A stretch of 64,000 nucleotides of DNA, taken from positions 1-64,000 of the forward strand of contig CALAJV010000016.1 in NCBI GenBank assembly GCA_937922805.1, read 5' to 3'. The stretch is from an uncultured Acidimicrobiales bacterium. GTDB taxonomy: Bacteria; Actinomycetota; Acidimicrobiia; Acidimicrobiales; SZUA-35. The stretch's first letter is position 1, and each line of letters starts with the position of its first letter. Below the pieces are notes generated by a model, which saw only the letters and a list, made by a program, of their open reading frames with translations, did no database searches and was not told the DNA's origin. The position numbers were made by a program, and so were the translations under genes. Of the stretch, positions 34,160 to 51,888 are shown one piece after another.

Positions 34160-35308
34160 GTGACCGGTCTTCCGGAACTGCGATCAGAGCATGAACTACG
34201 GAAACTAACCGGCATCAAATGGACCAAGTATGGCCAAGACGTTTTGCCCGCCTGGGTAGCTGATATGGATCTGAAGCCGCCTGATTTTGCCTCCGAGGCT
34301 GTTCAGGGAGTCATCGACCGATTGGACTTCGGGTATAACTTTGCCGCCGCGAATCGACTGCCTGAATTGTTTAGCGACTGGCAGGATCGCTATCACGGTT
34401 GGAGGCCTGACCCAGACCATGTGATGACGTTCAACGATGTGCTTCACGCCATTGAAGTGAGCCTGTGGCTTCATACTTCCCCCGCCAGCAGCGTGGTTTT
34501 GCTCACTCCGATTTACCCGCCGTTTCTAAAGTCTCTGGATGGAGCCAACCGGACGCTAGTTGATGTGGCGCTCGATCCGGATGGCTGGCGGTTGGACGCC
34601 GACCGTTTGGCGTCGGCGATAGATAGCAACACAGAGGCGATCTTGTTGTGCAACCCACACAACCCGACGGGTCGGGTTTTCGACCAGGCTGAACGCCAAG
34701 CAATCGCTGACGTGGTGGTTGAGCATGATTTAGTACTGATTAGCGACGAAGTCTGGGCCGACCTTACCCACCCTGGGGCGAAGCATGTCCCGATGGCGAC
34801 GGTGAGCGATGAGTTGGCCGCCCGAACCATTACTATTTCCTCGGCTAGCAAATCCTTTAGCCTGGCCGGTTTGCGATGCGCCGTCGCTCATGCAGGCCAG
34901 AAGTTGCGGCCGAAGTTTGATGAGTTACCTGAGCACTTTATAGGAGCCGTCAGCTCGCCTGGGGCTGAGGCGACTGCCGCCTGTTGGGAACACGGCGACA
35001 TCTGGATCGAAGCTACCAGATCCTATTTGACCGACCGTCGAGATCAAGTGGTGGCGAGAGTGGAATCTGACTTGCCGCAGGTCAAGGCAATGACTCCACA
35101 AGCAACGTACCTAGCCTGGTTAGATTTTGAGGCCGTTGAGATTGGCTCGAACCCAGCTCGTTGGTTGCTCGAAAACGCTTCCGTTGCCCTTTCTCCTGGA
35201 CCCGATTTCGGGAGCGGTGGTTCAGGCTTCGCCCGAATGAACTTTGCAACGTCTGCCGAACTAGTCAACGAGATTCTCGATCGGATCGTTGATGCCATCA
35301 ACCAGTAA
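34160..35308 (+). CDS. PatB/MalY-type PLP-dependent C-S lyase or aminotransferase
   Basis: The 382-residue protein is a fold-type I PLP enzyme. WVADMDLKPPDFASEAV is the diagnostic N-terminal PatB/MalY motif. The core has LLCNPHNPTGRVF, ISDEVWADL, the PLP lysine in SSASKSFSLAGLR, and ARMNFA with the substrate Arg. Family members act as cystathionine beta-lyase or modulate regulators. I chose the GTG at 34160, which has GAGGAG seven bases upstream, over the ATG at 34136. Its end overlaps the next gene by about 20 bp. Confidence 0.9.
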   Translation: MTGLPELRSEHELRKLTGIKWTKYGQDVLPAWVADMDLKPPDFASEAVQGVIDRLDFGYNFAAANRLPELFSDWQDRYHGWRPDPDHVMTFNDVLHAIEVSLWLHTSPASSVVLLTPIYPPFLKSLDGANRTLVDVALDPDGWRLDADRLASAIDSNTEAILLCNPHNPTGRVFDQAERQAIADVVVEHDLVLISDEVWADLTHPGAKHVPMATVSDELAARTITISSASKSFSLAGLRCAVAHAGQKLRPKFDELPEHFIGAVSSPGAEATAACWEHGDIWIEATRSYLTDRRDQVVARVESDLPQVKAMTPQATYLAWLDFEAVEIGSNPARWLLENASVALSPGPDFGSGGSGFARMNFATSAELVNEILDRIVDAINQ

Positions 35309-37694
35309 TGGGGGTGGGGTCGGCTCGCAGGGCAATTGGTTAGGAACGTTTCTCGTCAATTTCCCGTCGCTAACTGCTGGACCGTTTTCTGTTGGCGTAC
35401 TCGGTTTTCTAGCGTCATGCTTGGTCGTTCTCGGTGGTTCCTTAGCGGGCGCTGCTGGGGTAGACGGCGGTTGGTTGATTTGGTCGGCCCCGAAAATCCC
35501 GGTAGAGCCAGCTGTCCCGATCCTTCTTGCGCTCATCGTCTATTTCGGGGGTTTGTTGCTTCTAGTGCGAGCTTGGCTGCTGTTGCGCCGAACCCACCTA
35601 GCCGCCCGAGCCGATGAGCTTGCTATAGCTGAATCCACTCCATCGACCCAGATCTCACCCGAGGCTGGCCTGGCTCGATGGACTGTTCTTTTGATAATTG
35701 CCGCCTGGGCGTTGCCGATGATTCTGGGGCCCCCGCTTGCTAGCCGCGACGTATACGCCTACGGGGCGCAAGGTCGCCTAGCGGAACAGGGGTACGACGT
35801 GTACGAGGTCGGTCCGGCCGCACTCGGCAGCGACGACCCGATTTTGGCCCCGGTCGATCCGCTGTATCGAGAAACGCCAGTCTTGTATGGCCCAGCCTTT
35901 GTTTCCCTTTCTTCAGTCGGAGCAGCCATAACCGGGTCGAGTCCCGAGTCAGCAGTAGTCTTTTATCGACTGCTAGCGGTCGCCAGTTTGATCGCCGCCG
36001 CGTTCGGAATTTTTGATACTGCGAAATCTTTGCGGATCGATCCAGTCGACGCGTTAATCCTCGGGGTCGCTAACCCCCTGGTGCTGCTCCACCTAGTGTC
36101 GGGGGCCCACAACGACGCGATAATGCTGGGTTTCCTTCTGGTCGGGATTGCAGCCGGACTCCGAATGAAGCGACCGCACCTAGCCGTCGTGCTGTGCGCC
36201 ATAGCAGCAGCAATAAAGTTGCCAGCGATGCTGGCCGTAGCCTTTATTGGTTGGCCATGGGTCACCAGTGCCGATGGGTTTTTTGTGCGAGCTCGGCGCC
36301 TGATCATTATTGGGGTGGAAGCTCTGGCAGTTTTGGCCATTGCTGGACAACTGACCGGGTGGGGGTGGAGCTGGGTTCGGGCTCTGGCTGGTCAGGAGCA
36401 TGTCGAGGCCTACTTGAGCGTCACCACCTTGATTGGCAGCGGATTGTCGTACCTTCCAGGAGTCGAATTCGACGACGCATTGCCAGTGAGCCGACTCGTT
36501 GGAGTAGTAATGGCCATAGGCCTAACCGCGATGCTGCTCTTTCGTCCTTCCCGAGGTTGGGTCAGCACGTTAGCGTGGAGTTTCTTGTGTTGGGCCGTGC
36601 TCCACCCGACGACACAACCGTGGTATTTGACTTGGGGCATGCTTGTGCTGGCTGCCACGGCGTCCGGCCACCGAAATCGCTTGTACATCGCAACCTCAGC
36701 GATAGGAATTTTCGCGGTTCTGCCGATAGGCCCTCAGTTAGGGATTGTCCTGCTCGACTCAACCACATGGATTGCGCTTCTTGGTGCGATCGCAATCATG
36801 TTTTGTTTAACGTTTAGCTTTGGTCGACCAGCATCGCCGGTTAGCCGGTCGGGTGCGATCGATACCTCAATGGTTTCTGTAGTCGTGCCGACGCGAAACG
36901 AGGCCCTGAACGTCGAGCCCTTTGTCGACAGCCTTCACCACGTCGTTGACCGTGCAGGCGAGTTCGGGGAGCGGTCGGTCGAGATCCTTTTCGTCGATGA
37001 CAGCCATGACGATACGCCTAATCGAATAAGTGTTTTGGCCAAAAAACACCGTCAGCCCGGTCGACTTGTTCGTGGCGATCATCGGCATTCGAACCGGCGT
37101 TGGGGCGGGCTTGGTGGCGCCGTCGTCGACGGGCTGGTTCAAACCCAAGGCGGCATTGTGGTGGTAATGGATGGAGATTTGCAGCACCCGCCGAGTCTCG
37201 TTCCAGAACTTGTGGCCGAGATTGATCGAGGCGCTGACTTAGCAGTAGCGAGCCGACGGCTTGGCAATGGTAGCGACCATGAGGGACTGACCAAGACCCG
37301 CCACCGCCTATCGATCATCGCCACCGCTATCGCTCAACGGTTGTTCCCATCTTCGGTCGGCGAAATAACCGATCCGTTGTCTGGCTACTTCGCCGTTCGT
37401 CTCGATCGACTGAACGTAGCTTTGCTGCAACCAGACGGATTCAAAATCTTGATTGAACTGCTTGTGACGCACCCAGAATTGAAAGCTACCGAGTTGCCTT
37501 TCACGTTCGGGGGCCGAGTCCAAGGAGTGTCGAAAGCGTCTGGATCTGAGGGGCTAAGGTTCCTCGGTCATTTACTCGACCTTTGGTTCCGTCGTTCTCG
37601 ACTATGGGCGGGCGCCCGAATGCCACAGAAGTACTTCACTGGTCAGGTCGTGGCTGCCGGACTACAGCATGAACAGACCCCGGTCAGGGACTGA
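35292..37694 (+). CDS. Fusion of MptB-like GT-C mannosyltransferase and GT2 polyprenol-phosphate mannose synthase
   Basis: An 800-residue two-part protein. Residues about 30-500 carry about 13 hydrophobic helices with SRDVYAYGAQGRL, the acidic motif region of MptA/MptB-type alpha-1,6-mannopyranosyltransferases that use polyprenol-phosphomannose. From about residue 527 a soluble GT2 domain begins (SVVVPTRNEALNVEPFV), with DDSHDDT, the DxD in VMDGDLQHPPSLV and SGYFAVR, as in DPM1/Ppm1. The fusion would make and use the same donor. The start overlaps patB. Confidence 0.85.
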   Translation: MPSTSNGGGVGSQGNWLGTFLVNFPSLTAGPFSVGVLGFLASCLVVLGGSLAGAAGVDGGWLIWSAPKIPVEPAVPILLALIVYFGGLLLLVRAWLLLRRTHLAARADELAIAESTPSTQISPEAGLARWTVLLIIAAWALPMILGPPLASRDVYAYGAQGRLAEQGYDVYEVGPAALGSDDPILAPVDPLYRETPVLYGPAFVSLSSVGAAITGSSPESAVVFYRLLAVASLIAAAFGIFDTAKSLRIDPVDALILGVANPLVLLHLVSGAHNDAIMLGFLLVGIAAGLRMKRPHLAVVLCAIAAAIKLPAMLAVAFIGWPWVTSADGFFVRARRLIIIGVEALAVLAIAGQLTGWGWSWVRALAGQEHVEAYLSVTTLIGSGLSYLPGVEFDDALPVSRLVGVVMAIGLTAMLLFRPSRGWVSTLAWSFLCWAVLHPTTQPWYLTWGMLVLAATASGHRNRLYIATSAIGIFAVLPIGPQLGIVLLDSTTWIALLGAIAIMFCLTFSFGRPASPVSRSGAIDTSMVSVVVPTRNEALNVEPFVDSLHHVVDRAGEFGERSVEILFVDDSHDDTPNRISVLAKKHRQPGRLVRGDHRHSNRRWGGLGGAVVDGLVQTQGGIVVVMDGDLQHPPSLVPELVAEIDRGADLAVASRRLGNGSDHEGLTKTRHRLSIIATAIAQRLFPSSVGEITDPLSGYFAVRLDRLNVALLQPDGFKILIELLVTHPELKATELPFTFGGRVQGVSKASGSEGLRFLGHLLDLWFRRSRLWAGARMPQKYFTGQVVAAGLQHEQTPVRD

Positions 37695-39036: not shown

Positions 39037-39300
39037 ATCCGATGAGCCCTCGGATTCAATCCGTAGGTGCTGGACAGCATCACTTGACTCGACGGAGGGA
39101 TTGTTCGAGCTGGTGTGGTCAACGTCACGATTCTGAGATTGGGGTCGGAAGCAGCGCTTGGAGGTAGTGATTAGAGGCAGTGATTGGTCAGGTATTGATT
39201 AAAGGTGTCAGTCAAGAGTAGTGACTGTGAGTAGGAATTGAGGGTATTGCCAGATTGCGATTGGCAGATTGAGTGCGTAACGACAGTATCCTTAACAGCT

Positions 39301-40089
39301 ATGAGTTCAGAGTCGACCAGCCCAGCAACACGCGAAATTGATGAATCGATGGACGAGGTCGGCGGCGATGCTACTACCGATGAAACAGTGACAGCGAACG
39401 GCGGGCAAGAAGCCAGTTCCGATGCCGATCTTGCTGACAGTATCGACACTAAATCCGATGAGACCAACCCGGGCGACCCTAACGCTCCGCTTTCGGTTTC
39501 CGGAGAGGCTCTAGCCACTGTGTTAGATGTTCGAGCTAGCGAGGACGACCCTGGCAATACGGCTCTACGAGTAGCCGTGACCGGCTCTACGATGACCGAG
39601 TTCGCTTACGCGCTTGACTTGGTTTCGATTGATGAAAAAGCTGACGATGATTTGGTGTACACCCAAGGAACCCACGATGAGCTGACGGTTATCATTCCCG
39701 CTTTGTCGGTTGAGAATATGATTGGTTCCGTTCTCGACGTTCCTGCCAACAGCGCCTCCGGCGGGCTTGTTATCAGAAACCCGAACACCCCAGATCCGTT
39801 GGCTGGTCTCGACCTCGATCTCAGTGGGGAGCTGCCCCAGAGAGTTCAGGCGGTGCTCGACCAAGCTGTGAACCCAGCGTTAGCGTCTCATGGTGGCTAT
39901 GCCGCCCTCGTCAACATCGAAGGTTCGACCGTTCATGTCACGATGGGTGGAGGTTGCCAAGGCTGTGCCGCGAGCGCCATGACGCTACGAGACGGCATCA
40001 AGACAATGTTGATGAACGCACTTCCAGAGATCGACGATGTAGTCGACGCCACTGATCATGCTGCTGGCGAAAATCCCTTTTATACCTAA
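39301..40089 (+). CDS. NfuA-like Fe-S cluster carrier protein
   Basis: The protein has about 262 residues from the ATG at 39301; the upstream frame from 39238 is improbable. After an acidic, Ser/Thr-rich leader (about 60 residues) comes an A-type/HesB-like degenerate domain (AYALDLVSIDEKADDD) without its cysteines. The NifU C-terminal domain follows with VTMGGGCQGCAAS, the CxxC pair that binds a 4Fe-4S cluster at a dimer interface. This is the NfuA layout. It carries clusters to apo-proteins, possibly to MoaA or the nuclease in this window. Confidence 0.88.
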   Translation: MSSESTSPATREIDESMDEVGGDATTDETVTANGGQEASSDADLADSIDTKSDETNPGDPNAPLSVSGEALATVLDVRASEDDPGNTALRVAVTGSTMTEFAYALDLVSIDEKADDDLVYTQGTHDELTVIIPALSVENMIGSVLDVPANSASGGLVIRNPNTPDPLAGLDLDLSGELPQRVQAVLDQAVNPALASHGGYAALVNIEGSTVHVTMGGGCQGCAASAMTLRDGIKTMLMNALPEIDDVVDATDHAAGENPFYT

Positions 40090-40238: not shown

Positions 40239-41666
40239 ATGCAAAACGGCGCTAATGATCGAGGCATTCTCGCCTACGGGGCGTATCTACCGTACTACCG
40301 GCTAGAAAAGGCTGCGATAACCGCAGCGCTTGGCAGCGGTGGCGGCCGAGGAACACGATCAGTAGCTTCGTATGACGAAGACGCAACGTCAATGGCAGTT
40401 GAAGCGTGCCGACTGACGCTTAGAGATTCAGACGTCACGCCCGACTCTGTCTACTTCGCCTCCGCTACGCCGCCGTACCTCGATAAAACTAACGCCAACG
40501 CCATTCATGCCGCTCTCGATTTGCCGTCCCGAGTTTTCGCTGGGGACGTTGGTGGTTCGCCAAGGTCGGTGAACGCCGCGTTGCGGTCGGCGCTCGACGC
40601 CAGCCGCCCAACTTTGGTTGTCGCCAGCGATGTTCGTAGCGGCCGTCCCGGGTCATCTGATGAAGCCAACACTGGTGACGCAGCAGTGGCTTGGCTCATC
40701 GGAAGTGAGGAAGACGGCCCGGTGATTGCATCATGGAGGGGCGGAGCATCTGCTACCGCTGAGTTCTTGGACCGGTGGCGACAGCCAGAATGGAACTATT
40801 CCCGAGTTTGGGAGGAGCGATTTGGTGAGCATGCCTACCTCCCGCTGGTCACCGAGGCGGCTGAAGCAGCGTTCAAAGAGTGCCAAATTGATCCGGCCGA
40901 CGTCGACGTTGTGGTCCTTACTGGTCTTCATGCTCGGGCAGTTAGAGGGGCTGCTCGAGCCGCTGGTGTTGAGGGGGCCAAAATCGCCTCCGATCTTACC
41001 GACGTTGTCGGCAACACCGGAACACCCCACGCCGGACTGATCCTCAGCTCGGTCCTCGACAACGCCAGCCCGGATACCACGATTATGGTGATCCATTTGG
41101 CCGACGGGGTTGACGTTGGTTTCTACACTACAACCCCGTCGATCGAGCAGTATCAGAGCGATCGTCCGTTGGAGATGCAACTCGAAGGGGCCACCTCGCC
41201 GTTGGACTACAACACCTTCCTCACCTGGCGAGGCATGCTTGATCGAGAACCACCCCGACGCCCTGATCCCGAATCTCCGGCCGCTCCACCGTCGCTTCGA
41301 TCGCAACGATGGAAATACGCCTTCGTCGGTTCGAAAGATAGAAGTTCGGGCGCCATTCATCTTCCTCCTCAGCGAGTCTCGGTTAGAGGCGGAGCCGTCG
41401 ATGAGATGGAGCCAGTTCCAATGGCTGATGTCGAAGCGACGGTTGTTACTTTCACTATCGATCGACTGGCCTACTCACTATCTCCGCCGGTCATAGCGGT
41501 CGTGATCGACTTCGACGGCGGAGGCCGGTTTCAATGCCAACTGACCGACGCCAATCCTGATGACGTCAAGATTGGTGATCGAGTCGCAATGACGTTTCGC
41601 CGTTTGGGTACTGCCAACGGCATCCACAACTACTTCTGGAAGGCTCGGCCAGTGGCCAAGCCCTAA
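40239..41666 (+). CDS. HMG-CoA synthase-like/thiolase-fold protein fused to a DUF35 OB-fold domain
   Basis: The protein has 475 residues from the ATG at 40239, which has a GGGGG ribosome site; an upstream ATG at 40194 is less likely. Residues 1-330 have the HMG-CoA-synthase-like ketosynthase fold: RGILAYGAYLPYYRL, EDATSMAVEA, VVASDVRSG, DAAVAWLIG and GNTGTPHAGLIL. The cysteine nucleophile expected near DVGGSPRSVNAAL is absent, and a Ser stands there. From about 350 an OB-fold of the DUF35 type follows (VVTFTIDRLAY, GDRVAMTFRRLG), though the usual zinc cysteines are not obvious. It sits 56 bp upstream of an SCP-x thiolase gene. Confidence 0.75.
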   Translation: MQNGANDRGILAYGAYLPYYRLEKAAITAALGSGGGRGTRSVASYDEDATSMAVEACRLTLRDSDVTPDSVYFASATPPYLDKTNANAIHAALDLPSRVFAGDVGGSPRSVNAALRSALDASRPTLVVASDVRSGRPGSSDEANTGDAAVAWLIGSEEDGPVIASWRGGASATAEFLDRWRQPEWNYSRVWEERFGEHAYLPLVTEAAEAAFKECQIDPADVDVVVLTGLHARAVRGAARAAGVEGAKIASDLTDVVGNTGTPHAGLILSSVLDNASPDTTIMVIHLADGVDVGFYTTTPSIEQYQSDRPLEMQLEGATSPLDYNTFLTWRGMLDREPPRRPDPESPAAPPSLRSQRWKYAFVGSKDRSSGAIHLPPQRVSVRGGAVDEMEPVPMADVEATVVTFTIDRLAYSLSPPVIAVVIDFDGGGRFQCQLTDANPDDVKIGDRVAMTFRRLGTANGIHNYFWKARPVAKP

Positions 41667-41722
41667 ACCGAATCTCTAAATCAAATCTCGAATCAGAACA
41701 CCGCGTAGATAGGGGAACGAAA

Positions 41723-42925
41723 ATGGCTTCAAGAGGAATCAAAGACCAAGTTGCGATCGTTGGAATGGGTTGTACCCCATTCGGGGAGCACTGGGATAAG
41801 TCAGTCGAGGACATGTTGGTTGAATCTTCGACCGCAGCCTACGAAAGCGCTGGGATAGACCAAGACGATGTCGACGCCTATTGGTTTGGAACGCTTGGCT
41901 CTGGCGTTTCTGGCCTAACGCTGAGTCGCGCGCTGAAGATCGACTACAAGCCAGTCACCCGAGTTGAGAACATGTGTGCTACCGGTTCGGAAGCGTTTCG
42001 AAACGCCTGCTACGCAGTTGCCTCCGGGGCATACGACTTAGTCGCGGCGGTCGGCGTGGAGAAGTTGAAAGACAACGGTATGTCGGGCCTGACCGGGACC
42101 AGTATCCCCGATGACGGAACTCGTCCTGATCTCACTGCTCCGGCCATGTTTTCGCTGTTGGCTCCGGCCTATTCGAAGAAGTACGGCGTCGACGAAGAAG
42201 AAATGAAGGACGTTCTCACTCGTATTGCGTGGAAGAACCACTACAACGGTGCTAGGAATCCTCGGGCTCAATTTCGCAAAGAAGTCGGTAAAGAGACCAT
42301 TTGCAATGCGCCCTTGATCGCCGGCCAGCTCGGCATCTTCGACTGCTCCGGTGTATCAGATGGTTCAGCGGCCGCCATTATCTGTCGGGCCGAGGACGCT
42401 CACAAGTACACAGACAACCCGCTGTATGTAAAGGCCCTTGCTTTCGCTGCTGGTCCGGCCGCAGGACCGATTGACCCCGATTACGACTACACGACGTTCA
42501 ACGAAGTAGTTGCCAGCGTGGCCGACGCCTACGCCCAGGCCGGAGTAACTGACCCTCGGTCAGAAATCGCCATGGCCGAAGTTCACGATTGCTTTACCCC
42601 AACCGAGTTGGTCCTGATGGAAGATCTCGGGTTTGCTGAGCGAGGACTGGGTTGGAAAGAGGTCTTGGCCGGAACCTTTGACTTAGATGGTGATCTACCG
42701 GTGAACCCTGATGGTGGCCTAAAGAGTTTCGGTCACCCGATTGGCGCATCAGGGCTACGAATGTTGTTCGAGTGCTGGTTGCAGCTTCGCCAGGAGGCTC
42801 CGCAGGATCGCCAAATCGCATCGGTAGCTGACGCAGGAAAGACGCTAGGCATGACCCATAACTTGGGCGGAGCGCCAGGGGAGTGCGTGAGCTTCGTCTC
42901 AATCGTCGGCAGCGAGCTGGGCTAG
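41723..42925 (+). CDS. SCP-x-type thiolase (acetyl-CoA acetyltransferase family)
   Basis: The 400-residue thiolase of the lipid-transfer/SCP-x branch has an intact catalytic set: the nucleophile Cys in RVENMCATGSEAFRNA (about 88), His in HDCFTPTE and GHPIGASGLR near the C-terminus. The opening VAIVGMGCTPFGE is also typical. It cleaves or forms 3-ketoacyl-CoA. Together with the upstream HMGCS-like/DUF35 fusion it forms a two-gene unit. An AGGGGAA ribosome site precedes the ATG. Confidence 0.9.
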   Translation: MASRGIKDQVAIVGMGCTPFGEHWDKSVEDMLVESSTAAYESAGIDQDDVDAYWFGTLGSGVSGLTLSRALKIDYKPVTRVENMCATGSEAFRNACYAVASGAYDLVAAVGVEKLKDNGMSGLTGTSIPDDGTRPDLTAPAMFSLLAPAYSKKYGVDEEEMKDVLTRIAWKNHYNGARNPRAQFRKEVGKETICNAPLIAGQLGIFDCSGVSDGSAAAIICRAEDAHKYTDNPLYVKALAFAAGPAAGPIDPDYDYTTFNEVVASVADAYAQAGVTDPRSEIAMAEVHDCFTPTELVLMEDLGFAERGLGWKEVLAGTFDLDGDLPVNPDGGLKSFGHPIGASGLRMLFECWLQLRQEAPQDRQIASVADAGKTLGMTHNLGGAPGECVSFVSIVGSELG

Positions 42926-50049: not shown

Positions 50050-51888
50050 TCACGACACAGAAAGCTGCTCTCGGATTGTCTTGGCTACGCCTGCGCCATC
50101 AAGACCGAGCGACGCCAAAATGGCATCGGCTTTGCCGTGCGGGATGTACTCGGTTGGAATGCCGAGTACTTGCACCCGGGGCCCGTTCGCCTTGCCTAGC
50201 TCAAGGGCAATGTTTGACCCAATGCCGCCCTCAGCCAGGCCATCTTCGATTGTTACCACCAGTTTGTGGTGATGGGCTTGGTCCAACATGTTGGGGTCGA
50301 GAGGCTTGGCTGCCCGTGGATCCCAGACGGTGACAGAGATTCCGTCAGACGCGAGTTCATCGGCGGCTTGTTCGGCCGCAGCTAGCATCTTGCCAACTCC
50401 GATAATGCACACGTCAGAACCTTCTCGCACCATCCGAGCGTTAAGCCCATGCCCTACTGATTCGTCGCCGACCGAAGGAGCCGGAGTCTTTGGCCAACGT
50501 ATACAAACCGGTCCATCGGTGATCTCGTAAGCATCCTGCATCATTTGTTGAAGTTCTTGATACGACGACGGGACTAGAATCGTCATACCCGGGACCTTGG
50601 ACATCAGCACCAGATCGAGAATGCCATGATGAGATGGTCCGTCGTCACCGGTGATTCCAGCTCGGTCCAGACAGAAAATAACCGGCTGGCCATGCAATCC
50701 GACATCGAGATTCGCTTGATCGATAGCTCGAGTAAGGAACGTTGCATACAAAGCAATTACTGGCCGAAGTCCTCCCATAGCCATACCAGCAGCCATCGTG
50801 ACTGCGTGCTGTTCGGCAATACCAACATCGATCATTTGCGACGGGAAGCGATCGCGGAAAGGTAGCAGGCCGGTCGAGTCGGGCATTGCCGCGGTGATGG
50901 CGACAAGCTCTTCGTGCTCTTCGCCTAGCTTGATTAAACTCTCGGTAAACGCGGCGGTGTAGCTTTCCGGCTTCACCGCTCCGACGTCGTGTAGATGTTT
51001 GATTGGGTCGTTCTCGGCCGGCGCATAGCCGCGGCCCTTTTGGGTTTGCACATGCAAAACGACGGGTCCGGCAAACTCATTGGCGTTTTGCAACGCCTTT
51101 TCGATCTCACCAATGTCATGGCCGTCGAACGGCCCCATATAGCGGATGCCAAGCGGCTCGAAGAACGTTTGTGGTTCGAACGCTTCTCGAATGGCTGCTT
51201 TCGATGCTTTGATACCGGTGCTTGAAAGGTTGCCGACAAGGGGAAGCTTGGCGGTAAAGCTCTCAAACCGGCGTTGGCGATCCATGTATACCGGGTTTGA
51301 TCTGATCTTGACCAGGCTCTCAGACAACAACGAAACGGTTGGCGCATACGACCGGCCGTTGTCGTTGAAAATGATGGTGACGTTAGCGCCAGAGACGCCC
51401 AAGTTGTTCAAACCTTCGAAGGCCATGCCGCCAGTAAGCGAGCCGTCACCGAGAACCGCCACGACCCGCCGATCGGCCTGATCACTGTCAGCAGCAAATG
51501 CGCTGGCCAAGCCGTGAGCATAACCAAGCACAGTCGACGCATGCGAATTCTCGATCCAGTCGTGAGGTGACTCTTCCTGAGATGGGTAACCAGACATGCC
51601 ACCAGCCTCACGTAACGTGTCGAAACCATCCTGGCGACCGGTCAGAATCTTGTGCACGTAGGCCTGATGGCCAGTGTCGAACAACAACACATCGCGGGGC
51701 GAGTCGAGGACACGGTGCAAAGCAACCGTTAGCTCAACAATGCCAAGATTGGAGCCAAGGTGACCACCGGACTTGCTCTGGTTCACCTTGTCGACGATGA
51801 ACTGGCGAATTTCTTCACAGACATCGTCGAGCTCTTTTTCGTCTAAATCACGCAGATCAGCTGGCCCGCTGACATTTTCCAAGATCAT
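50050..51888 (-). CDS. dxs: 1-deoxy-D-xylulose-5-phosphate synthase
   Basis: The 612-residue thiamine diphosphate enzyme makes DXP, the first step of the MEP isoprenoid pathway. It has GGHLGSNLG, FDTGHQAYVHKILTG, the ThDP motif GDGSLTGGMAFEGLNNLG through NDN, the transketolase Pyr domain MIDVGIAEQHAVTMAAGMA and the C-terminal GLAEGGIGSNIA. Length is that of the family. Its presence indicates that isoprenoids come from the MEP route here. Confidence 0.95.
   Translation of the reverse strand: MILENVSGPADLRDLDEKELDDVCEEIRQFIVDKVNQSKSGGHLGSNLGIVELTVALHRVLDSPRDVLLFDTGHQAYVHKILTGRQDGFDTLREAGGMSGYPSQEESPHDWIENSHASTVLGYAHGLASAFAADSDQADRRVVAVLGDGSLTGGMAFEGLNNLGVSGANVTIIFNDNGRSYAPTVSLLSESLVKIRSNPVYMDRQRRFESFTAKLPLVGNLSSTGIKASKAAIREAFEPQTFFEPLGIRYMGPFDGHDIGEIEKALQNANEFAGPVVLHVQTQKGRGYAPAENDPIKHLHDVGAVKPESYTAAFTESLIKLGEEHEELVAITAAMPDSTGLLPFRDRFPSQMIDVGIAEQHAVTMAAGMAMGGLRPVIALYATFLTRAIDQANLDVGLHGQPVIFCLDRAGITGDDGPSHHGILDLVLMSKVPGMTILVPSSYQELQQMMQDAYEITDGPVCIRWPKTPAPSVGDESVGHGLNARMVREGSDVCIIGVGKMLAAAEQAADELASDGISVTVWDPRAAKPLDPNMLDQAHHHKLVVTIEDGLAEGGIGSNIALELGKANGPRVQVLGIPTEYIPHGKADAILASLGLDGAGVAKTIREQLSVS

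Follow-up and report, generated by a model that had tools for sequence, protein, structure and literature searches.

An SCP2-type thiolase gene paired with a fused HMG-CoA-synthase-like/DUF35 protein of predicted inactivity in an uncultured Acidimicrobiales bacterium

Architecture of the gene pair

The window analysed here, a stretch of 64,000 nucleotides (contig CALAJV010000016.1, positions 1 to 64,000, forward strand; assembly GCA_937922805.1) from an uncultured Acidimicrobiales bacterium of the SZUA-35 lineage, contains two adjacent genes on a common strand. The first encodes a domain similar to archaeal 3-hydroxy-3-methylglutaryl-coenzyme A (HMG-CoA) synthase, hereafter HMGCS, fused to a DUF35 domain, and the second, located downstream after a gap of 56 bases, encodes a thiolase. 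The initial annotation of the window had proposed an HMGCS-like/DUF35 fusion beside a thiolase, and we confirmed the open reading frames (ORFs), the protein families and the gap. The features of the pair are the following.

40239..41666, + strand: HMGCS-like/DUF35 fusion gene, ATG at 40239, TAA stop at 41666, 475 amino acids (ORF, family and structure matches)
40260..41243, +: HMGCS-like domain, residues 8-335, predicted to be catalytically dead (NF003274, 6esq_I, AlphaFold model against 6esq)
40464..40466, +: Ala76, opposite the archaeal catalytic Glu82 (alignment; Glu in 0/109 family rows)
40557-40559, +: Ser107, the residue named in the initial annotation, directly preceding Pro108
40560..40562, +: Pro108, opposite the archaeal catalytic Cys114 (alignment; Cys in 0/109 family rows, 1 gap)
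40920..40922, +: Thr228, opposite the archaeal His238 (alignment; His in 0/109 family rows)
41244..41663, +: DUF35 domain, residues 336-475 (PF01796; profile matches to 6esq_E, PhlB and ChsH2-DUF35; Foldseek)
41316..41414, +: rubredoxin-like ribbon without the four zinc cysteines, residues 360-392 (0 Cys; no PF12172 match)
41415..41600, +: OB-fold (PF01796) stretch, residues 393-454 (E 4e-13, above the cut-off)
41723..42925, +: SCP2-type thiolase gene, ATG at 41723, TAG stop at 42925, 400 amino acids (NF004810, 596 bits; 6esq_A, E 4e-60)
41975..41977, +: putative nucleophilic Cys85 of the thiolase (Cys in 85/86 rows, 1 gap)
42584..42595, +: HDCF motif of the thiolase, residues 288-291 (83/86 rows, 3 gaps)
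42734..42736, +: His338 of the thiolase GHP motif (83/86 rows, 3 gaps)

The N-terminal domain of the fusion matches the archaeal type of HMG-CoA synthase (NF003274, E 6e-44, 150 bits, below the naming cut-off of 244; TIGR00748, E 5e-29, also below its naming cut-off), and a sequence search against PDB retrieved 6esq_I with an E-value of 2e-22. For comparisons within the family we used 80 named loci, which are the best 80 of at least 493 confirmed relatives and thereby biased to close kin; the closest of these are from Acidimicrobiales metagenome genomes, with a top identity of 82% (L040). The AlphaFold model and a profile of the fusion were built from 48 sequences, the profile set being drawn from the window and these 80 loci. 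The model has a mean predicted local distance difference test score (pLDDT) of 88 and a predicted template modelling score (pTM) of 0.91, and its top structural match is the archaeal HMG-CoA synthase 6ESQ (VIA Z 41.1, root-mean-square deviation 2.2, 329 residues), followed by PhlA-type subunits (VIA Z 39-40) and the HMGCS-like chain of MucABC (9VBO, Z 36.7). The kinship to the archaeal thiolase/HMGCS/DUF35 complex, as initially proposed, is thus borne out by both sequence and structure.

In the alignment to the Methanothermococcus enzyme (6esq_I), the archaeal Glu82, Cys114 and His238, the last of which we take to be catalytic as well, correspond to Ala76, Pro108 and Thr228, and the profile of 48 relatives yields the identical pairing at all three positions. 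Glu82 and Cys114 have been described as key residues of the archaeal HMG-CoA synthase (PMC6392133). The family alignment comprises 109 rows, namely the window, the 80 named loci, 8 loci on plasmids and 20 out of 30 loci from a phylum-wide sample. Of the 10 left out, one is the window, one is a broken copy and eight are close to retained rows; the active-site and ribbon regions were displayed for all 30. None of the 109 rows keeps the catalytic residue at the Glu, Cys or His column, with one gap at the Cys column. Judged by its residues, the HMGCS-like domain is thus predicted to be catalytically dead at all three positions. The initial annotation, which had suggested that this domain is a non-catalytic partner with Ser in place of the catalytic Cys, was right that no Cys is present at the active site, but Cys114 aligns with Pro108 and the serine lies one residue earlier. 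The loss of the Glu and the His, the loss of the zinc site described below and the resemblance to PhlACB, the closest functional precedent, had been overlooked.

The DUF35 domain contains the sole PF01796 match in the genome, and no other DUF35 OB-fold domain was found there. Profile matches to this part include 6esq_E (E 5e-14), PhlB-type chains and ChsH2-DUF35. The C-terminal 140 residues modelled alone gave a weaker model than the full fusion (pLDDT 76, pTM 0.63), and all 21 Foldseek matches of this model at E ≤ 0.001 belong to DUF35-containing entries, of which they are the small chains, 118-146 residues long. Similarly, the first 11 rows of the VIA comparison are DUF35 small chains with Z 8.3-11.0, while the next row has 6.2; the structural matches include ChsH2, Shy and the small chain of MucABC (Z 10.4).

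All DUF35 structures solved by 2019 are described as binding zinc at one common place (PMC6996347). The ribbon of the window protein contains no cysteine and gave no match to the zinc-ribbon model PF12172 up to E 1, while the four-Cys relatives L116 and L068 score above its cut-off. The ribbon cysteines are all-or-none in the family: 81 of the 109 rows have none, 28 have four or five, and no row has one to three, while the ribbon loop itself is retained despite the loss. On the tree, the loss corresponds to at least four changes, with open forks and with long branches that meet. Repeated losses are not claimed, as the zinc-less motif is near-uniform and a single loss combined with a poorly resolved tree is equally likely.

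To estimate selection, the proportions of nonsynonymous (pN) and synonymous (pS) differences were calculated for five close relatives, in which synonymous sites are near saturation. The values were pN 0.14-0.25, pS 0.68-0.75 and pN/pS 0.20-0.33 for the HMGCS-like domain, and pN 0.06-0.12 for the DUF35 domain. Since pN is well below pS, both domains appear to be under purifying selection, the dead domain less tightly.

The product of the second gene matches NF004810 with 596 bits (cut-off 403) and PDB 6esq_A with an E-value of 4e-60. In an alignment of 86 thiolases, from which one shorter match was excluded, Cys85 is present in all rows except for one gap, and the HDCF and GHP motifs are present in 83 rows, with gaps in the other three. 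HDCF is described as the motif of SCP2-thiolases; in steroid aldolases its place is taken by YDHF or YDCY, and the nucleophilic Cys is replaced by Gly in Sal (PMC12329534). Because the HDCF motif and the nucleophilic Cys are present, the protein is, by its residues, predicted to be a thiolase and not an aldolase of the Ltp2 or Sal kind.

This bears on the suggestion in the initial annotation of a steroid-type substrate, and on the alternative that the pair is a retro-aldolase acting on steroid or branched side chains, like Ltp2-ChsH2 or Sal-Shy (PDB 6OK1, 9MYR). In these systems a thiolase-fold enzyme is likewise held by a DUF35 domain (PMC12329534), and ChsH2 and Shy are among the structure matches of the DUF35 part. 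However, they have the aldolase motif and a MaoC-type partner, where the window has an HDCF thiolase with a nucleophilic Cys and an HMGCS-like partner. In addition, the KshA_C steroid-ring oxygenase domain had no match in the genome, by a search whose control was weak (1 of 14 genomes matched, below the cut-off). We consider this reaction improbable, and the steroid-type substrate was not upheld; a branched acyl-CoA, the other substrate suggested in the initial annotation, is a possible one.

Linkage of the fusion and the thiolase

To learn how consistently the two genes occur together, we surveyed 296 genomes of the class, in each of which the five or six best candidates were scored, at thresholds of E ≤ 1e-40 for the fusion and E ≤ 1e-110 for the thiolase. 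The fusion was identified in 90 genomes and the thiolase in 93, and all 90 fusion genomes contained both. The three genomes with the thiolase alone have it at most 150 bases from a contig start. At 97 of the 104 thiolase places, a fusion on the same strand precedes the thiolase by no more than 1.5 kb (by no more than 150 bases at 94; median gap 34), and five of the remaining seven start at most 150 bases from a contig start. Conversely, 4 of the 103 fusion places, which include some gene fragments, have no thiolase behind them.

The named loci show a similar arrangement: at 78 of the 80 loci the thiolase follows the fusion on the same strand at a distance of up to 1.3 kb (up to 120 bases at 72), and at the other two it lies 2.2-2.3 kb behind the fusion end. 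Paralogous copies follow the same rule, as one genome with three pairs (G274) and one with two (G121) have a thiolase of its own for each of the five fusions. The presence of the thiolase in 90 of 90 fusion genomes among the 296 searched indicates that the linkage is not due to chance. In a phylum-wide sample, also of 296 genomes, a match was found in 50 (E ≤ 1e-10), four of which are weak and cover the HMGCS-like part only.

Known complexes of related architecture

The window encodes homologs of all three parts of the archaeal thiolase/HMGCS/DUF35 complex, with the genes lying together, and the complex provides the top sequence match to each of the three parts as well as the top structure match to the HMGCS-like part. 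In this complex, CoA is described as bound at the junction of all three proteins (PMC6392133). The window differs in having HMGCS and DUF35 joined in one chain, a synthase predicted to be dead, a lost zinc site and no HMG-CoA reductase match in the genome.

A second system, the Friedel-Crafts acylase PhlACB (PDB 5M3K, 5MG5; relatives 9SKH/9SKM), is composed of a dead HMGCS-like subunit, an active thiolase and a DUF35 subunit, as in the window, where the thiolase similarly keeps the catalytic Cys and the His of the GHP motif. PhlA is described as lacking the catalytic Cys and Glu, and the PhlACB genes as belonging, along with a polyketide synthase, to an antibiotic operon, the enzyme transferring acyl groups without CoA-activated reagents (PMC6392133). 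Its DUF35 subunit is reported to bind zinc (PMC6996347). PhlACB is encoded by three separate genes, one of them for DUF35 alone, whereas the DUF35 domain in the window is fused to the HMGCS-like domain. The MucABC acyltransferase of Streptococcus macacae (PDB 9VBO, 9VBT), known here by its PDB titles, also combines an HMGCS-like chain with a small chain that matches DUF35; these are separate chains, and the structural alignment, at 20% identity, shows them to be more distant.

The benzoylsuccinyl-CoA thiolase BbsAB (PDB 7PXP, 7PYT) belongs to the anaerobic toluene pathway, and we know of no HMGCS-like subunit in it. It pairs a thiolase with a DUF35-type subunit, the role of which is treated in PMC12329534, and its entries are among the matches of the thiolase and DUF35 parts of the window. 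Fusions of DUF35 homologs to members of the thiolase superfamily were noted in general terms in 2010, with PhlA as an inactive member (PMC2954200). No description of the fused, paired and often zinc-less family was found in a literature search limited to titles and the abstract openings of part of the matches. It therefore appears that a dead HMGCS-like subunit and DUF35/thiolase-superfamily fusions are already known, while the fused, paired and often zinc-free form has been little studied.

Gene neighbourhoods and the proposed function

A tblastn survey of plasmids matched 38 records from Rhodococcus, Mycobacterium, Sphingobium and other Sphingomonadaceae, Azoarcus, Variovorax, Streptomyces, haloarchaea and others, and 14 annotated contexts were opened. 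All 14 contain an adjoining thiolase, which in two haloarchaeal plasmids (L039 and L128) with a similar fused protein lies in front of the fusion rather than behind it. Of the other genes, a short-chain dehydrogenase/reductase (SDR) or 3-hydroxyacyl-CoA dehydrogenase is annotated in 13 contexts, and a hydratase and a CoA ligase or transferase in 12 each; 9 contexts contain an acyl-CoA dehydrogenase and 5 a Rieske ring-hydroxylating oxygenase. In 11, no second thiolase is annotated within the displayed stretch. The cluster in Halostagnicola, whose fusion is outside the residue counts, has a CoA ligase, an acyl-CoA dehydrogenase, a hydratase and a hydroxyacyl-CoA dehydrogenase next to the pair and is thus, by annotation, a complete beta-oxidation set.

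The five contexts with a Rieske oxygenase (L033, L034, L038, L130 and L133) also contain a CoA ligase or transferase and mostly hydratases beside the fusion-thiolase pair. They resemble the ibuprofen ipf set, described as comprising a CoA ligase, a Rieske oxygenase, an SCP2-like thiolase and an OB-fold protein (PMC9195938, PMC11347016, PMC6063337), and they may serve to degrade aromatic acids via CoA esters. The ipfDE genes could be a precedent for the fusion pair by analogy, the gene sets being alike in these 5 of the 14 contexts.

Because the neighbours of the plasmid relatives are of the beta-oxidation type, the most likely reaction of the pair would be the thiolytic cleavage of a 3-ketoacyl-CoA, which is reversible, so that condensation would be possible as well. 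The same neighbours bear on the alternative of a PhlACB-like multicomponent C-acyltransferase, in which the thiolase would pass the acyl group to a carbon nucleophile with no CoA cleavage of a 3-ketoacyl-CoA. The combination of a dead HMGCS-like part, a live thiolase and a DUF35 part does match PhlACB and MucABC, and the Cys and Glu lost from the fusion are also those missing from PhlA (PMC6392133). However, the plasmid relatives lie beside hydratases, acyl-CoA and hydroxyacyl dehydrogenases and CoA ligases, and a Pfam scan of 22 genes of the window found no polyketide synthase domain, no such search having been made in the remainder of the genome. We give this alternative a small but appreciable chance.

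In the window, the pair is surrounded by genes of another kind, two of which recur at related loci:

39238..40089, + strand: gene for an NfuA-like iron-sulfur (Fe-S) carrier (PF01106 above the cut-off; TIGR03341 NfuA, E 2e-28, below its cut-off)
50050..51888, − strand: dxs of the methylerythritol phosphate (MEP) pathway (PF13292, E 2e-97), 8.4 kb behind the fusion gene

The neighbours of the 80 named loci were labelled by similarity to annotated neighbours over a span of -6 to +8 kb, in which many loci are truncated by contig ends. Within this span, nfuA or dxs was found at 35 loci (nfuA at 34, dxs at 17), CoA-metabolism labels without nfuA or dxs at 29, and neither at 16. The window belongs to the nfuA group, with nfuA directly upstream. 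The NfuA-like carrier has an IscA-like N-terminal part, and this gene order recurs in many Acidimicrobiia loci; no functional link between nfuA and the adjacent thiolase pair is evident. The zinc-less named loci are divided into 35 with nfuA or dxs nearby and 37 without, and the 8 Cys-bearing loci have neither gene, which indicates that the zinc loss is not bound to the nfuA locus. Further upstream, the window encodes an 801 amino acid protein (35289-37694) in which residues 530-700 form a glycosyltransferase family 2 domain, preceded by a long N-terminal part that is hydrophobic as judged by eye.

The recurrence of the nfuA and dxs locus in Acidimicrobiia, together with the name of NF004810, 'acetyl-CoA acetyltransferase', would fit a biosynthetic acetoacetyl-CoA thiolase that meets a housekeeping need at this locus. 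However, this name is an annotation rather than a tested function, the genome contains six other thiolase_N genes (and one further, weaker Thiolase_C_1 match, 29 bits), and 206 of the 296 genomes of the class have no match to the fusion, so that there is no general need for it. We therefore regard such a role as unlikely.

The presence of dxs, which the initial annotation had cited against a mevalonate role, was verified. HMG-CoA reductase (PF00368) had no match in the 94% complete genome (a control search found PF00368 in 5 of 14 genomes), and the HMG_CoA_synt_C domain was not found in it either. A mevalonate role of the pair is considered unlikely because both domains were missing from these searches, dxs is present and the synthase is predicted to be dead. 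A working HMG-CoA synthase in the mevalonate or a related pathway has in its favour that the closest solved relative is an archaeal HMG-CoA synthase; with three catalytic residues gone, HMG-CoA reductase not found and dxs present, it is extremely improbable.

Taken together, the domain architecture, the loss of the active-site and zinc residues, the intact thiolase motifs, the tight linkage and the beta-oxidation-type neighbours on plasmids, all directly computed, suggest that the products of both genes form a single acyl-CoA thiolase of two subunits, in which the pseudo-synthase/DUF35 chain serves as a non-catalytic dock, like PhlA and PhlB in one chain. We assign this a probability of about 0.7. 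Several observations weigh against it. The pair's thiolase is not the sole one in the genome, the neighbours in the window are themselves no beta-oxidation operon, and 32 of the 35 loci with nfuA or dxs have no CoA-metabolism label at all. The plasmid contexts were hand-picked, some are near copies of one another, and their gene tables are incomplete. A Cys occurs elsewhere within columns 104-112 in 9 of the 109 rows of the fusion family, never at the catalytic column. The distances of the fusion and the thiolase are correlated (r 0.95 over 82 rows), but this was rejected as support for co-evolution: the value is 0.97 in the DXS subset and 0.94 in the NfuA subset, and the NfuA and DXS controls are equally high (0.92-0.98).

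In a two-subunit thiolase of this kind, the chemistry would be carried out by Cys85, His288, Cys290 and His338, with the acyl group held on Cys85 while the C-C bond is cleaved or made. The fusion chain would dock physically on the thiolase, in the manner of HMGCS and DUF35 in the archaeal complex or of PhlA and PhlB on PhlC, and the dead HMGCS-like domain and DUF35 would help to build the pocket for CoA and the acyl group. Since the archaeal CoA site lies at the junction of three proteins, the dead synthase may have been kept because it can still complete the CoA site.

A broader scenario is tentative and, in our view, rather doubtful: the pair may represent a widespread bacterial class of thiolases with dead HMGCS and DUF35 in one chain as an obligate CoA-docking subunit, which lost zinc in many Acidimicrobiia and of which one part moved from catabolic operons to a conserved nfuA...dxs locus, where it would carry out an unrecognised acyl-CoA step.

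In public databases, the fusion is named 'OB-fold domain-containing protein', 'hydroxymethylglutaryl-CoA synthase', 'zinc ribbon domain-containing protein' or '3-oxoacyl-ACP synthase III C-terminal domain protein', and the thiolase 'acetyl-CoA acetyltransferase' or 'thiolase domain-containing protein'. If the two proteins form one enzyme, these names conceal a thiolase subunit, and calling such a gene an HMG-CoA synthase, as is done in Streptomyces cathayae, is probably misleading. Because the dead domain is kept, under apparent selection and nearly always paired, the family provides a clean case for asking what use a dead domain is to a live partner, and its zinc-less branch permits a test of the purpose of the DUF35 zinc ribbon. 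Finally, the clusters in which ring-hydroxylating oxygenases and CoA ligases occur may be of use in finding pathways for the degradation of aromatic acids.

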